This document shows positions 46,141-51,998 of a DNA stretch of 64,000 nt, one piece after another (positions within the stretch are counted from its first letter, which is position 1; the number at the start of each line of letters is the position of its first letter). This stretch comes from Fidelibacterota bacterium (lineage in GTDB: Bacteria; Fidelibacterota; UBA8477; JABMPR01): positions 1 to 64,000 of the forward strand of contig JAERTG010000162.1 of assembly GCA_016845065.1 (NCBI GenBank). The letters run 5' to 3'. A program made the position numbers and the translations under genes. The notes below the pieces were generated by a model that saw only the letters and a list, made by a program, of their open reading frames with translations, made no database searches and was not told the DNA's origin.

Positions 46141-47031
46141 ATGCAGGCACAAAAATATCGATTCCCCATAGCGGTGATCCAGTCAATTTGTCTGCTATTG
46201 CTTCTCCAACAATGTGCCTGGCTTTTTGGTGAAAAGGATCCAGAAGACCTTGTTAAACCGGTGCCAGTTGGTGGCTATGAAACACTAAGTACCCGGATTC
46301 ACTATCCCAGGGAAATCAGGGCGGCTGGCATTGAAGGATCCGTCATTGTGAATGCCCTCATTTCAGTGGAGGGATTAGTCAAACAGACCCGTGTAATAGA
46401 GCCTCTACATCCTGAGCTGGACCAGATCGTCACTAATGCTATCAAACGAACTCCCTTTGAGCCTGCCACCCGACAGGGCAAACCAGATGAAGTCTGGATT
46501 TCCATTCCCTTTATTTTTTCATTGAGTGACTGGTCATCAAGAAATACCCCCTTCAGTTCTTTCACGATGACCATTTATCCTGACCCTGCATATAAAAATT
46601 TTGATGTTGAAATTCAGGGACCCCTAATGGATGGCCTGAAATGGCCCCAGCGTTTTGAGTGTCTACTACCATTTAATGCCGCAAACTACTGGGCGAAAGA
46701 CGGGGATGGGAAGCCACTACACACCAGCATCGTGAAGGACGATAAAGGCGAATGGTTGGTCTTTCAAACATCAGCCAGAGATCTGACATTCGGTTTTACA
46801 TACAAGTCCATTGACAAAGTGCTTGACCAGAAATTTCTATATGAGTTCACCATGAATCATGCGCTCCCAGAGTGGGCATTGAGGGTGGTCTATGGTAGTC
46901 AGATAGTCAACTTTATTCAAAGCCCTGACCGGGTCGTTACCCTGGATGATGGTGAAACTCAATTTGAATATGACTTTGAAGCTCAGGATCCATATGAGTC
47001 GAGATATCTGGATATTGAACTTCAAAAGTAG
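46141..47031 (+). CDS. lipoprotein with TonB C-terminal domain
   Basis: The 296-residue protein has a signal peptide ending LLLQQC (Cys25). Residues about 50-128 form a TonB C-terminal domain: IHYPREIRAAGIEGSVIVNALIS, then GLVKQTRVIEPLHPELDQ and AIKRTPFEPATRQGKPDEVWISIPF. True TonB has an inner-membrane helix; here the domain is lipidated, so it cannot contact ExbB/ExbD directly in the usual way. The remaining 170 residues are beta-rich and unknown. It stands 158 nt before the GldL-like gene. Confidence 0.78.
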   Translation: MQAQKYRFPIAVIQSICLLLLLQQCAWLFGEKDPEDLVKPVPVGGYETLSTRIHYPREIRAAGIEGSVIVNALISVEGLVKQTRVIEPLHPELDQIVTNAIKRTPFEPATRQGKPDEVWISIPFIFSLSDWSSRNTPFSSFTMTIYPDPAYKNFDVEIQGPLMDGLKWPQRFECLLPFNAANYWAKDGDGKPLHTSIVKDDKGEWLVFQTSARDLTFGFTYKSIDKVLDQKFLYEFTMNHALPEWALRVVYGSQIVNFIQSPDRVVTLDDGETQFEYDFEAQDPYESRYLDIELQK

Positions 47032-47189: not shown

Positions 47190-47726
47190 ATGGCAAAATC
47201 ACAGGAATATACCAGGAAAAAGACAGTAATGGAGCAATACCCAAGCCGGCAAGCGCTGGTGTATTCAGGTGCTGCGTTTCTTATTTTAGTAACCGGTCTC
47301 CGAACAGTTCTTTCTGTAGCAGAAGAGGGTATGGGATTTGTTGAGTATGTCACCATTGGTGCCCTCGCCGTTGAGTTTAGTCTTTTGCTATTATATGCTT
47401 TGACCATTTATCAGGCAGGAAAAGAAACCTTTCTCATGACACTTGAAGAAGAAGCTGCTGAGATGGAAGGTGGTGGTGAATCCGCAGATGGCAGTTCAGC
47501 TCCTGTAAAAGAATTTGCGGTACAGTCTGCTGATGTCCCTGAAGTTGCCAAGGAGATTAACAAGTTTACTAAACAGGCCAGTGTCCTTATAGATAAGCTG
47601 GCAAAAAATGCAGAACAAAGCGAGAACTTGAACCAGCATTTAAAAGAGCTGGCAGATGAGCAAATTAATATTCGAGTCCGCGATGAGATACAACGATTGT
47701 TAAGCGCTAATATGAGTGCCAAATAA
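47190..47726 (+). CDS. GldL/PorL-like inner-membrane motor protein
   Basis: The 178-residue protein has two membrane helices (about 21-43 and 50-75) and a cytosolic C-terminal coiled-coil region (about 114-175). The second helix carries a Glu (Glu62) in VTIGALAVEFSLLLLYAL, corresponding to the essential membrane Glu of GldL in type IX systems (T-I-G-x-x-x-E). Size, topology and the following gene fit GldL, which with GldM converts the proton gradient into rotation to drive type IX secretion and gliding. Sequence identity outside the helices looks low, so this is a divergent homologue. Confidence 0.75.
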   Translation: MAKSQEYTRKKTVMEQYPSRQALVYSGAAFLILVTGLRTVLSVAEEGMGFVEYVTIGALAVEFSLLLLYALTIYQAGKETFLMTLEEEAAEMEGGGESADGSSAPVKEFAVQSADVPEVAKEINKFTKQASVLIDKLAKNAEQSENLNQHLKELADEQINIRVRDEIQRLLSANMSAK

Positions 47727-47744
47727 ACCGACAGGAGTAGCCGC

Positions 47745-49157
47745 ATGGCTCGCAAGAAAAAGTTCCAAGCTCGTGTCGAAGTTTATTTTATCATTTATAT
47801 CGCCACGATTGTCAGCTTCTTCGCTATCGAAGGTGAAGTAAAACATTTCAAGGACAACCAGAAGAAGATCCTTCTGGAAGTTTCAAAAGATAAAATCCAG
47901 AACCTAGTAACGATCCGAAATGCTACGGATATCCATGGCAAGGATACCATCAGCTTAAAAGTCTCCCTCGATGGGGCTTTTTCAAAAGATTCCTTTGAAG
48001 GAACCGTTCAACTCAATCCCATCGATGCACCTGAGGAATTGAATCTTCAAGAGCTGTCATATGATCTTGCTCCGAAGAATCAAGATCCGGACAACAAGAT
48101 TTTCATTGCCACAATCCCGAAATCAGATTTTGATCTAAAAGCTGAGATACTCTATCGCATGTCAGCAGATATCAGTGTCATGCCTGACGAACAACTGGTT
48201 CAGGCAGAGCTGGAGAAATCCTATACTGACAAAACCATTGTGCACAAGATCATGGATGCCATGACGGATGTAGGTGAAATATCCCTGGAAAAACAATTCC
48301 AGAACACTCTGGATCCCGCTGGCGGAGCCATTCAGGCTCCGTTCACTATTACCGTGGACAGACCAAAGGTTAGTATCGTAGAAGGGTTGCCATGGGAAGT
48401 TCGGGTGATCATTGGTGGTATCGTGGATGCAGATGATCTTGAGCTGACTGCTACTAAGGGTGCCAATCTGGTAGGCAAACTGGATGCTGGTACGCCAGTA
48501 ACAGTTGTATCCGGTCGAGGTCGAAAGGATGGTCGTATTACCCTTAAGGGAACCAGACTTTCAGATGAAGAAACATCACTGGTGGAATTCCAGCTTCAGG
48601 TAAGACCACCCCTCTGGCAGAAAGCGCCTTCCATCTCTGAAGCTTATGTCGGTGATCCCTTTATTTTTGAGGGGGCTCTCCGCGATATTCCTTCATCAGA
48701 AACTTCAATTAGAGTTGGTGGAACCGCAGTTCGTGGTGGTATCATGCCGGGAACCATTGCCCAATTACCGGATCTGGCTGAAGAAGGCAATATCACCTTC
48801 CAGGTATTGGTAGATGGCCGTGAAGTAAAGGGGATGAGTCACTCAATTACTGTGATAAAGCCACCAGCACCCAAGGTCTCAATCAATCCTGTGGGTCGAG
48901 ATGGAAATTACCTGACATTTGAAATCACCACTTACGGCAAAAACAATAGTATCCGGCGCTTTAGGAAAAAGGGTGGTATTGGATCACATCGTCAGCTGGG
49001 CGAAGCTCAGATTCTAGGTAGCCGCAAGGTCTATCGTTGGGAGGTTGAGTTGGAGGAACCCTTCGATAATGTTGAATCTCAGGAGATCAAATTCAGCGTA
49101 GATGATCAGAACAAATCTGCTACCTCATATCGCAAAATATTTATCTATAACTACTAA
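47745..49157 (+). CDS. GldM/PorM-like periplasmic motor protein
   Basis: The 470-residue protein has a short cytosolic tail (MARKKKFQAR), one membrane helix (about 11-29) and a long periplasmic region. This is the GldM plan. Several beta domains can be traced: about 60-150, a helical link (about 155-195), then VDRPKVSIVEGLPWEVRVI, an Ig-like region (VVSGRGRKDGRITLKG), PPLWQKAPSISEAYVGDPF and a C-terminal domain PAPKVSINPVGRDGNYL. The extended helical D1 domain of Bacteroidetes GldM is not obvious. It is 18 nt after the GldL-like gene, so the two form the core motor. Confidence 0.72.
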   Translation: MARKKKFQARVEVYFIIYIATIVSFFAIEGEVKHFKDNQKKILLEVSKDKIQNLVTIRNATDIHGKDTISLKVSLDGAFSKDSFEGTVQLNPIDAPEELNLQELSYDLAPKNQDPDNKIFIATIPKSDFDLKAEILYRMSADISVMPDEQLVQAELEKSYTDKTIVHKIMDAMTDVGEISLEKQFQNTLDPAGGAIQAPFTITVDRPKVSIVEGLPWEVRVIIGGIVDADDLELTATKGANLVGKLDAGTPVTVVSGRGRKDGRITLKGTRLSDEETSLVEFQLQVRPPLWQKAPSISEAYVGDPFIFEGALRDIPSSETSIRVGGTAVRGGIMPGTIAQLPDLAEEGNITFQVLVDGREVKGMSHSITVIKPPAPKVSINPVGRDGNYLTFEITTYGKNNSIRRFRKKGGIGSHRQLGEAQILGSRKVYRWEVELEEPFDNVESQEIKFSVDDQNKSATSYRKIFIYNY

Positions 49158-49207
49158 ACGAAAGATACAGAATATAATATGTTTGAAATGATAAGAAGGA
49201 GGGACCA

Positions 49208-50512
49208 GTGAAATTACGAAACCTCATAACTTCATTTATAATGCTTGTCTTTGTATCCACAATATGGGCACAGGGATTTCAGGAAACTGGCAAGTTGGAA
49301 TGGGTTGTTAAAGATCGTGAATTTAGTCGCAGCTTTATGGAAGCCTATATCGATACCCTCATGGAAATCGATGATATGGCCGAGCTTGAAGTACAGGAAA
49401 CCGATGAACTACGCGTAATTGTGGGAATCGATGTGGAAGGCGAAGCCAGCCTGGAAAGCATTTATGCCAAAGGTCGTAGCGGTGTCTTGAATAAGCTGGT
49501 CACCGCTGTGCTGGACAGCATGGACGTCGAAATGGTGGGGCGCATCCAAAGTCGTAAATACAACTGGGATTATCTAGCTGCTGTTGATGTTGGTGGCGGC
49601 CGTGGTGATGTAGTGAATGTCTTTGAAGAACGAAGCAATAAGCAGGTTCGCGATGCCTTCTGGTGGACCCATCGTCGAGTGGATATTTCAGTTTTCCCCA
49701 GGATGTTTATTCGTGTAAATCCCAATTTTGCCTTTGCTACTGAGTTTGGTCGACAGGATCTGGGATTTCCTGCAGCTGCATCCAGAACACTAAACATGGG
49801 CCTGGCAACCGAGGTGCTAAAGTTTTATGTCACCCTGCCTGCGTCCTATCTCAATCTGTTAAAGAGTAGTAACTCCCCACTGGAGGGGACATTCGGTGGT
49901 GTACTGAAATTTGACTCACCGAGTTTTGGTGGCAGTCTGTCCTTTCAGGATATGAACTTCCTGGGAAACACAGATACGACCTCATTTTTAAATCCTTCAA
50001 ATGTGATCTATAACCCAGCCTCAGGACAATTCTACTATAGCTTCACCAGTCGTATTGGAACCACAGCTGATCAGCCTGGTTTTGTACCGCTGGGGTCTCT
50101 GAGACTTCAAATCGGCTTTAGCTATATGCAGTTTGCATATGGTGATGCGCTGGATACTGAAGCAGGTGTTTCGGATGGTCTCGGTAGTTTTCGACTTCTG
50201 GACAAGAGTGATCCTCTGGAGTCAATGTTTGGTTTGTTCAGAGCAGAATATGCTTCAGATATGAACAATCGATTTTTCAATAGAATCAAGATGGCTGCTC
50301 AGCTAAACATCGGTTTAAACGGCTTTGGTGGCTTTGATTTTACCACAGCCTACACGATAACAGAGTGGCTGGGTGTCAATTTGAACATGACCTATTTCTG
50401 GAGTCCGATGACCTTCAACTATATTGATCCCACGCCGGGTTCGACCACGCCACTTGAATATGAATGGGAGCCAGGTTTCTATATTGTCCCATCCGTAGCA
50501 TTGTACTTCTAG
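49208..50512 (+). CDS. outer-membrane beta-barrel with periplasmic N-domain, motor-associated
   Basis: The 434-residue protein has signal peptide MKLRNLITSFIMLVFVSTIWAQ. Residues about 25-130 form a soluble domain (KLEWVVKDREFSRSFMEAYI, VIVGIDVEGEASLESIYAK) with helix-strand character. The remainder is a beta-barrel with alternating strands (RMFIRVNPNFAFATEFGRQD, GLGSFRLLD, FFNRIKMAAQLNIG) and ends ...YIVPSVALYF with a C-terminal Phe. It follows the GldM-like gene by 50 nt and precedes a second barrel gene by 11 nt. I do not recognise the family. The N-domain could contact the GldM-like protein. Confidence 0.7.
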   Translation: MKLRNLITSFIMLVFVSTIWAQGFQETGKLEWVVKDREFSRSFMEAYIDTLMEIDDMAELEVQETDELRVIVGIDVEGEASLESIYAKGRSGVLNKLVTAVLDSMDVEMVGRIQSRKYNWDYLAAVDVGGGRGDVVNVFEERSNKQVRDAFWWTHRRVDISVFPRMFIRVNPNFAFATEFGRQDLGFPAAASRTLNMGLATEVLKFYVTLPASYLNLLKSSNSPLEGTFGGVLKFDSPSFGGSLSFQDMNFLGNTDTTSFLNPSNVIYNPASGQFYYSFTSRIGTTADQPGFVPLGSLRLQIGFSYMQFAYGDALDTEAGVSDGLGSFRLLDKSDPLESMFGLFRAEYASDMNNRFFNRIKMAAQLNIGLNGFGGFDFTTAYTITEWLGVNLNMTYFWSPMTFNYIDPTPGSTTPLEYEWEPGFYIVPSVALYF

Positions 50513-50523
50513 GAGGATTGAAG

Positions 50524-51792
50524 ATGAATACATCAATTCGCAAAGCACTCCTGATATCACTTACTCTGATTATCTCACTCTCAACAGTTTGGGCACAGCC
50601 CAAGGCTCCGCCCATGCTGGATCCTCGCCGCTTTGACGCCTGGACTGTGGAGTATGAACCCTTCCGCCTTCTTATTGAAAATGCAGTGGAAGAATACATC
50701 ACTTTAAATGAAACGGAACTACCGCCCATTGCGTCAACGGACAATGTGATTGCAGTCAGATCCAAATCAGGTCAGAGACAGCTTTATCAAATTCGTTATG
50801 GAACTGTATCAGAAGGCTATAACGTGATTGACAATATGGAAGTGAAGTGGGTGCTGGGCACTACCCTGGCTCAGACTATTTCCGAAAAGGAAACCTATTA
50901 TCACCTGGATACATCTGAACCTTATGAATCTACCAAACATAGACCAGAAATTGACTATCTCGAAGTTGAGTCATTTTGGACTCATACTGATTTACAGATT
51001 GGTACTGATCGACTGGTTTACCTCTTTGGAAAATCTGGAGGTATTACAGTTGAGTGGGGCAATGAGCTTTTTGGTCGCCCCTATGGCGAAGCCGGCTTTG
51101 CCCGTTTTGGAGTGATTACACCCATATTCAAAATGGGTATTCAGGTTCCCTCACCCTCCATTCCTTTAGGCTATCGAGCTGGTACCGATGATACGGAGGA
51201 CCACCTCACTGGAGGTATTGGTGGTTTTGGTGCCTTTAAGTACAAGGTTCTGTATGGGGAGTTATTTTTTCAATCCCTTGAGGCTGCTTTAGCCAGCGGT
51301 ACACATATCAATAGCTATGACCTGGGTGGTTTAATGAACCTTAGTTTTAATACCACGCTTTCTGGTATTCCCATGGGAAAAGAGAAGCGTCTATTTGCAG
51401 GAGCTTTGCAAATCCGACTTGGTGCAGTAATAGCCAGGGTTGATCACAGTCAGATCATTGATGATCGAGTCAGTTTCCAGAATGAGAAACGCAGCTATAG
51501 TGTAGCGGATGGTGATACAACCGAAGAGTTTACCAATGGCGAAGCTGCTTCTCTGGATGAATCAGGTCTTTTCTTTCGCCTGGATTATGCCTCTCCGCTT
51601 ATTGAAAAAAGTTATCCGCGTCATGAAGCGGTCTTCCAGGTTTCTGGACCCAGCATTATGACCAAATATACATACAACATAAACAAGACTTTGGGTTTAC
51701 CGCTCAGCGTGCTTGTATATACCAAGGATAATGAGTGGACACCAAGTGCTGCCATTCTGGTTGGTTTTAAATTGAGGCTTGATCAGAATTAA
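50524..51792 (+). CDS. second outer-membrane beta-barrel-like protein of the motor operon
   Basis: From ATG 50524 (AGGAGGA at normal spacing) the product has 422 residues with signal peptide MNTSIRKALLISLTLIISLSTVWAQ in part (cleaved after A-Q). A soluble region (about 25-150, with AWTVEYEPFRLLIENAVEEYI) precedes barrel-like strands (GEAGFARFGVITPIFKMGIQ, FGAFKYKVLYGELFFQS, GALQIRLGAVIARVD) and the end AAILVGFKLRLDQN. Family unknown. The frame is open upstream to 50464 but overlaps the previous gene. The last gene of the operon; a terminator follows. Confidence 0.7.
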   Translation: MNTSIRKALLISLTLIISLSTVWAQPKAPPMLDPRRFDAWTVEYEPFRLLIENAVEEYITLNETELPPIASTDNVIAVRSKSGQRQLYQIRYGTVSEGYNVIDNMEVKWVLGTTLAQTISEKETYYHLDTSEPYESTKHRPEIDYLEVESFWTHTDLQIGTDRLVYLFGKSGGITVEWGNELFGRPYGEAGFARFGVITPIFKMGIQVPSPSIPLGYRAGTDDTEDHLTGGIGGFGAFKYKVLYGELFFQSLEAALASGTHINSYDLGGLMNLSFNTTLSGIPMGKEKRLFAGALQIRLGAVIARVDHSQIIDDRVSFQNEKRSYSVADGDTTEEFTNGEAASLDESGLFFRLDYASPLIEKSYPRHEAVFQVSGPSIMTKYTYNINKTLGLPLSVLVYTKDNEWTPSAAILVGFKLRLDQN

Positions 51793-51811
51793 CTGGTCTC
51801 ACATTTAGCAT

Positions 51812-51842
51812 AAAAGGGTAGGCTTTTGTCTGCCCTTTTTTA
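51812..51842 (+). terminator. intrinsic terminator after the motor operon
   Basis: A stem AAAGGGTAG/CTGCCCTTT (one G-U pair) with a short loop is followed by six T residues. It ends the GldL-GldM-barrel-barrel transcript and isolates it from the cbb3 locus. Confidence 0.85.
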
Positions 51843-51998
51843 TTTGAAAGATTTACCAGAGTCAGAGATTTTTTCTCAAATATCACTAATTACATGGCAT
51901 TTGAGGTGTTCATTATTATTTTGTGCTGAAATCATGCTTAACAGATCAACATATTTTACTCAAAATCAAAATTATCCGTTTATAGAAACGAGGGCAGT

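Follow-up and report, generated by a model that had tools for sequence, protein, structure and literature searches.

Ion-driven motors of the cell envelope come in few known kinds. A review of 5:2 motors names MotAB, ExbBD, TolQR, AglRQS and GldLM (PMC9389320), and a study of GldL in Flavobacterium reports that the glutamate E49 is required for GldLM function, secretion and motility (PMC8986121). Here we consider a stretch of 64,000 nucleotides (the window) on contig C162 of a 4.05 Mb genome from the Marinimicrobia (Fidelibacterota), a group of uncultured marine bacteria. Four of its genes, which we call gL, gM, B3 and B4, had been interpreted in an original prediction as a divergent GldL/GldM-like motor coupled to two outer-membrane barrels. 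We find that the four genes travel together as an accessory cassette, and we argue that they may encode an ion-driven machine laid out like GldLM. The features of the locus are as follows.

gL: 47190..47726, + strand; 178 aa, two transmembrane (TM) helices and a coiled-coil-like tail; candidate ring subunit, working like GldL
gL TM1: 47253..47315, + strand; residues ~22-42, with the conserved basic residue R38
gL TM2: 47346..47408, + strand; residues ~53-73, with the invariant Glu62 (codon 47373-47375)
gM: 47745..49157, + strand; 470 aa, one TM helix (codons ~47775-47831), then a predicted stalk of immunoglobulin (Ig)-like beta domains; candidate axle or stalk, working like GldM
B3: 49208..50512, + strand; 434 aa, carrying a signal peptide, an N-domain that is conserved and has a motif of the ERSxKxxRDxFWW type, and a C-part resembling an outer-membrane barrel and ending in Phe
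B4: 50524..51792, + strand; 422 aa, homologue of B3; signal peptide, N-domain, and a region probably barrel-like by homology with B3
Intrinsic terminator-like hairpin: 51812..51839, + strand; 3′ of B4

The first two genes are laid out like GldL/GldM (PorL/PorM). The L gene precedes the M gene, as in the gldL-gldM pair of locus L107; gL shares with GldL two TM helices, a TM2 glutamate, a TM1 basic residue and a cytoplasmic-type tail, and gM is bitopic like GldM, with several periplasmic domains and acidic residues ending its TM helix. A TM1 lysine and a TM2 glutamate can also be seen by eye in seven canonical GldL rows that we aligned. Unlike GldLM, the cassette has no GldN alongside, is completed by two homologous barrel-like proteins and is patchy in its occurrence. 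B3 and B4 recall the barrels PorP/SprF and PorG, outer-membrane partners of a GldLM-type motor, but they carry a conserved N-domain, and 23 B3 rows searched against Pfam at an expectation value (E) of up to 10 matched neither PorP_SprF (PF11751) nor GldN. A Cys-x-Cys tail is used by SprF and PorG (PMC12635249), whereas the window B3 and B4 contain no cysteine. AglRQS-Glt of Myxococcus, ExbBD-TonB and TolQR-Pal resemble the proposed machine as inner-membrane, ion-driven motors acting through the periplasm; in these systems the ring is built from members of the MotA/TolQ/ExbB family, to which gL, with two membrane helices only, shows no match.

Gene layout and distribution of the cassette

All four genes lie on the + strand within 47190-51792, with intergenic gaps of 18, 50 and 11 bp in order, and the hairpin that follows has a stem of 12 pairs and a T-rich tail (the scan gave nine such sites in total, against 6.7 expected by chance). 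That four closely spaced genes end at a terminator-like hairpin is thus confirmed, and the genes are real. For B4, the listed open reading frame (ORF) was 442 aa long and began at 50464, inside B3; we set the start at 50524 because the B4 proteins of close relatives, mostly 422-424 aa, suggest it. No above-noise match in Pfam or NCBIfam was found for any of the four window proteins, the B4 query carrying 20 extra N-terminal residues.

The original prediction had proposed checking related genomes for the same gene order, and the order gL-gM-B3-B4 on one strand is indeed found in 38 of 38 loci from genome contigs, as far as each contig extends, which means that the arrangement is not a product of chance. 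gM is present at 38 of these loci, gL at 36, B3 at 35 and B4 at 32; some of the loci belong to genomes that are also counted below under G handles. The two without a counted gL are L034, which starts inside gM, and the KSB1 locus, for which gL was recovered separately. Among 199 genomes of the phylum, a single-protein search found gM in 26, the same 26 that a profile search returned, and 9 of the 94 better genomes have it. B3 occurs in 25 of the 199, namely in 25 of the 26 with gM and in none of the 173 without it; in the sole gM genome that lacks B3 (G013), gM is cut by a contig end. Only the KSB1 genome itself has gM among the 82 genomes of its group.

The cassette is present in 13 of the 19 genomes of the host genus. 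At five cassette-free sites in that genus (G020, G033, G037, G049 and G094) the TonB_C and Rrf2 genes adjoin, ~0.2-0.4 kb apart (5/5), and tblastn of the four genes gave no match there. A sixth cassette-free congener (G065), with only a 43% Rrf2 match, was left out of this comparison, and G003, which belongs to a different genus, showed no TonB_C gene next to Rrf2. In G037 (L133 8565-8657) a 94-column match at 89% to window positions 51756-51847 takes in the final 37 bases of B4 together with the terminator. It is best read as the scar left when this lineage lost the cassette by deletion; no such remnant is present at the other four sites. Given the conserved order, the co-occurrence of gM with B3 and the adjoining flanks in cassette-free congeners, the cassette is a genuine, accessory, co-inherited unit. 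Scans of viral contigs gave no useful result.

A second, diverged cassette is present in G057 (G057:C48:34426-35820, L027) beside a standard copy; its gM shows 37% identity, and the second gL matches in two pieces.

The membrane proteins gL and gM

Hydropathy gives gL two membrane segments, at residues ~22-42 and 53-73. E62, in the middle of TM2, is a glutamate in all 37 aligned rows, in agreement with the two helices and second-helix glutamate noted for the first gene. At TM1 residue 38, 34 rows have Arg and three have Lys. The gL tail is probably a coiled coil, judging from its own sequence and from coiled-coil matches. Coiled coils dominate the best 60 of 106 PDB matches of the full-length gL profile, and as they swamped it a TM-only profile was built for the PDB search. 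Single gL rows match families prone to coiled coils, the best being an MCE family model (E 4.2e-6, one row).

In gM there is one membrane segment near the start (~11-29). Its invariant columns fall mainly within residues 11-31 (10 of 13), those of gL within residues 24-73 (15 of 16), and this clustering indicates that the membrane core is held fixed by evolution. A structure model of gM built from 28 sequences has a mean predicted local distance difference test score (pLDDT) of 82 and a predicted template modelling score of 0.48; it places a long N-terminal helix at 2-52, then about four beta regions in a chain, which bears out the single membrane helix and several beta domains expected of the second gene. 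The best 50 Foldseek matches of the model are mostly tandem Ig/fibronectin type III proteins, and GldM is absent among them.

The barrel-like proteins B3 and B4

Both B3 and B4 begin with a signal-peptide-like stretch, as had been claimed for the third and fourth genes. They are homologous by profile comparison (E 1.1e-7, probability 94%), and in a tree with 17 rows of each, taken from 16 of the 38 loci plus the window, they fall on two separate sides with support of 100/100, some branches being long; the duplication therefore predates the spread of the cassette. A B3 model from 23 sequences (mean pLDDT 65.5) has barrel-like strands in its C-part and a mostly unreliable N-domain, and its Foldseek matches include OmpT, AlgE and other barrels, five of them at E <= 0.001; for B4, a barrel-like C-part is suggested by homology with B3. 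The last residue is Phe in 32 of 35 B3 and 18 of 32 B4 proteins, some rows being cut by contig ends, and in the window it is Phe in B3 and Asn in B4. Thirteen of the 32 B4 proteins exceed 700 aa, with ~300 additional N-terminal residues.

Comparison with GldL, GldM and other motor proteins

As controls, canonical GldL, GldM, GldN and PorP (from L068 and L107) matched their own models with best domain E values of 3.5e-24, 1.7e-28, 3.4e-65 and 6.8e-74; the GldL control was that of L068, and the GldM control matched all four GldM domains. None of 32 gM rows matched GldM_1st-4th or TIGR03517 in the Pfam search (E<=1). For 26 gL rows, neither GldL_N (PF22827) nor another GldL model was among the families listed, which were the best 25 of 64 in Pfam (the remainder one row each, E above 0.026) and the best 25 of 26 in NCBIfam. 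Taken together, the families listed for the gM, gL and B3 rows include no GldL, GldM, GldN or PorP/SprF model. Window B4 gave no GldN or PF11751 match in Pfam. In the PDB, which holds ten GldM/PorM sequences and five of GldL, the gM profile (E up to 10) found no GldM/PorM chain, and the TM-only gL profile (E<=10) found six chains, none of them GldL. Run against G193, a genome that holds a canonical GldL, the gL profile gave no hit with E up to 1; when a small local set was searched, no canonical GldL scored above 3.0 bits, which is below unrelated ORFs, and canonical GldM was not among the matches listed.

gM gives a marginal profile match to GldM that runs through domains 2-4 in matching order (E 0.0025, probability 11.8%). 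A second comparison gave E 0.045, with one of 150 shuffles as high, and the gM profile scored 24.8 against GldM and 16.2-18.1 against three unrelated proteins. The first 60 residues of gM beat 200 of 200 shuffles against GldM, but the match spans 19 columns and is registered so that the TM helices do not coincide, and we do not rely on this. A likeness of the B3 and B4 N-domains to GldN, noticed by eye as a motif, was rejected (profile comparison E 0.11 and 0.17, no Pfam support). B3 and B4 were not significantly similar to a single GldK sequence, a thin template, no genome search having been made for GldK, nor was the B4 profile to one PorP; the profile comparisons with GldK, GldL, GldN and PorP used templates of one to seven sequences, and their negatives are weak alone. 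The families named beforehand as alternatives, ExbB/TolQ and MotA/MotB, found no match from the window proteins, and MotA, TolQ and ExbB are not among the families listed for the gL rows. The cassette is thus GldL/GldM-like in layout, and descent from GldL/GldM cannot be shown.

Type IX secretion in the phylum

An abundance of sorting-domain proteins in SAR406 has already been published (PMC5596340). A SprA match (E up to 0.001) is present in 193 of the 199 phylum genomes, in 185 of them above the cut-off, and occurs in 25 of 26 cassette genomes and 168 of 173 cassette-free ones; G191 and G192, both cassette genomes, have weak matches only, and G156 has none. The host genome encodes a SprA-type protein (G000:C148:34026-38429, E 5.9e-179) and has at least 85 sorting-domain matches, with no match to GldM (E up to 1) or GldN (E up to 0.01). 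All 55 genomes checked for the sorting domain have it: 26 carry the cassette, 28 lack it and one is from KSB1. The congeners G037 and G020 lack the cassette but have SprA. Type IX genes thus accompany the cassette and are found without it as well, and its link to type IX secretion is weak.

GldM is recognisable in one of the 199 genomes and GldN is above cut-off in that same one (three others being weak), cassette or not, so the claim that GldK and GldN are replaced here is not shown. The only canonical GldK-GldL-GldM-GldN cluster found in the phylum lies on contig C9 of G193 (L068). We rejected it as evidence for GldM in Marinimicrobia generally: it is one genome of 199, with 5% contamination, and the contig is possibly foreign. 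The cassette was also rejected as the general type IX motor of the phylum, since 26 of 199 genomes have it against 193 with SprA, and translocon and cargo are present with or without it. As they do not track the cassette, it would have a job of its own, or help some strains only. Nearly all Marinimicrobia examined thus have a SprA-type protein, and every one checked has cargo with the sorting domain; a recognisable GldM or GldN accompanies these in very few cases, and the type IX translocon is thus seen without the motor known to serve it.

Discussion

Our preferred interpretation, for which we judge the chances evenly balanced, is that the cassette encodes an ion-driven trans-envelope machine, built like GldLM and acting on its own barrel pair. 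Several copies of gL would form an inner-membrane ring round a gM dimer, and ions passing Glu62 of gL TM2 would move gM relative to gL, possibly by rotation. The Ig-like stalk of gM would span the periplasm and act on the periplasmic N-domains of the B3/B4 pair, and the barrels, presumably in the outer membrane, would be moved or gated. The load is the least certain part: a surface adhesin might be carried, transport gated, or the cells' own type IX translocon helped. This interpretation builds on the observed gene set and its conserved order, on co-inheritance (gM with B3), on the predicted topology, and on invariant residues concentrated in the membrane core, with a TM2 glutamate and a TM1 basic residue as in GldL; to these come the modelled beta stalk and the exported, barrel-like partners. 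The earlier interpretation is to that extent partly supported: the layout of a GldL/GldM motor stood, and the sequence kinship did not.

Several observations weigh against a machine of this kind. The Pfam, NCBIfam, PDB-sequence and profile tests revealed no significant sequence relationship to a known motor protein, and the gL-GldL profile score was equalled by 45 of 200 column shuffles locally and 121 of 200 globally. Among the Foldseek matches listed for gM and B3, whole-model TM-scores by query length were <=0.26. The first periplasmic domain of GldM is helical, unlike the first periplasmic part of gM, which is modelled as beta-rich, and the N-domain of B3, on which the stalk would act, is poorly modelled. 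A model of the FieF cation-efflux pump is a recurring gL match (16 of 26 rows, best E 0.0022; E 0.48 with the TM-only profile), and this weak likeness means that the gL helices could have another role.

The main rivals are a passive conduit and a divergent type IX motor. On the first, gL and gM would anchor and position B3 and B4, as a porin or exporter pair, in a static scaffold spanning the envelope, with no motor. The OmpT/porin and AlgE (alginate exporter) matches of the B3 barrel suit it, as do the lack of similarity to known motors and the FieF-like signal in gL. We nevertheless consider it unlikely, as an invariant glutamate in mid-helix and invariant positions concentrated in the membrane parts of gL and gM are hard to square with a passive anchor.

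Rather less credible is a truly divergent GldL/GldM that powers type IX secretion with B3 and B4 in place of GldK, GldN and PorP. The gldL-gldM-like layout and gene order, the marginal gM-GldM profile match, and a host rich in sorting domains with SprA yet no GldM or GldN match all speak for it; the rarity of the cassette relative to SprA, the persistence of SprA where the cassette is missing in the genus, and the want of significant sequence kinship speak against it.

A special case of the ion-driven machine, in which a TonB- or Agl-Glt-like energiser for surface motility or uptake pulls or shifts paired adhesin-bearing barrels, much as the Myxococcus system has outer-membrane partners, is improbable: two homologous barrel-like proteins adjoin the motor-like pair, long B4 proteins occur and one clade has an Ig/cadherin-like lipoprotein gene 5′ of gL, but no neighbour is constant across clades.

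One may also ask whether the machine is a separate class of ion-driven envelope motor, with no detectable descent from GldLM or MotAB/ExbBD, encoded in a four-gene cassette with a dedicated barrel pair that Marinimicrobia acquire or lose as a whole; this we regard as doubtful. Among the open-licence texts searched on Marinimicrobia/SAR406, type IX secretion beyond Bacteroidetes and GldLM-type motors, no title listed describes the cassette. A motor-like pair always encoded with its own pair of outer-membrane barrels would, if it is a motor, offer a compact four-protein system for studying how torque or force reaches the outer membrane.

Neighbouring genes

Upstream of the cassette, the window has genes for a TonB_C lipoprotein and a PafA-like phosphatase (the latter below model cut-off), and an 890-aa ORF that we take to be valS; downstream are an Rrf2 regulator gene and an ORF that is presumably copper-ATPase-like. 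The TonB_C lipoprotein gene (46141-47031) was rejected as a cassette member, as it persists at all five cassette-free sites of the genus. At 16 loci of one clade gL is preceded by a gene for a lipoprotein whose domains, scanned in L047 only, are Ig/cadherin-like; at seven loci of another clade a ParA-like gene and membrane genes, one of the latter with weak matches to secretion-system-like domains, lie 5′ of the cassette. No neighbour common to all clades was found, and hence the unit consists of the four genes.

In L042 (174-4552) and six sister loci, a conserved five-gene block that includes the ParA-like ATPase stands immediately upstream of the cassette. In KSB1 (L040 5516-7029), the upstream sequence holds a Peptidase C25 fragment and then a frame that clusters with a sorting-domain protein, and looks interrupted.

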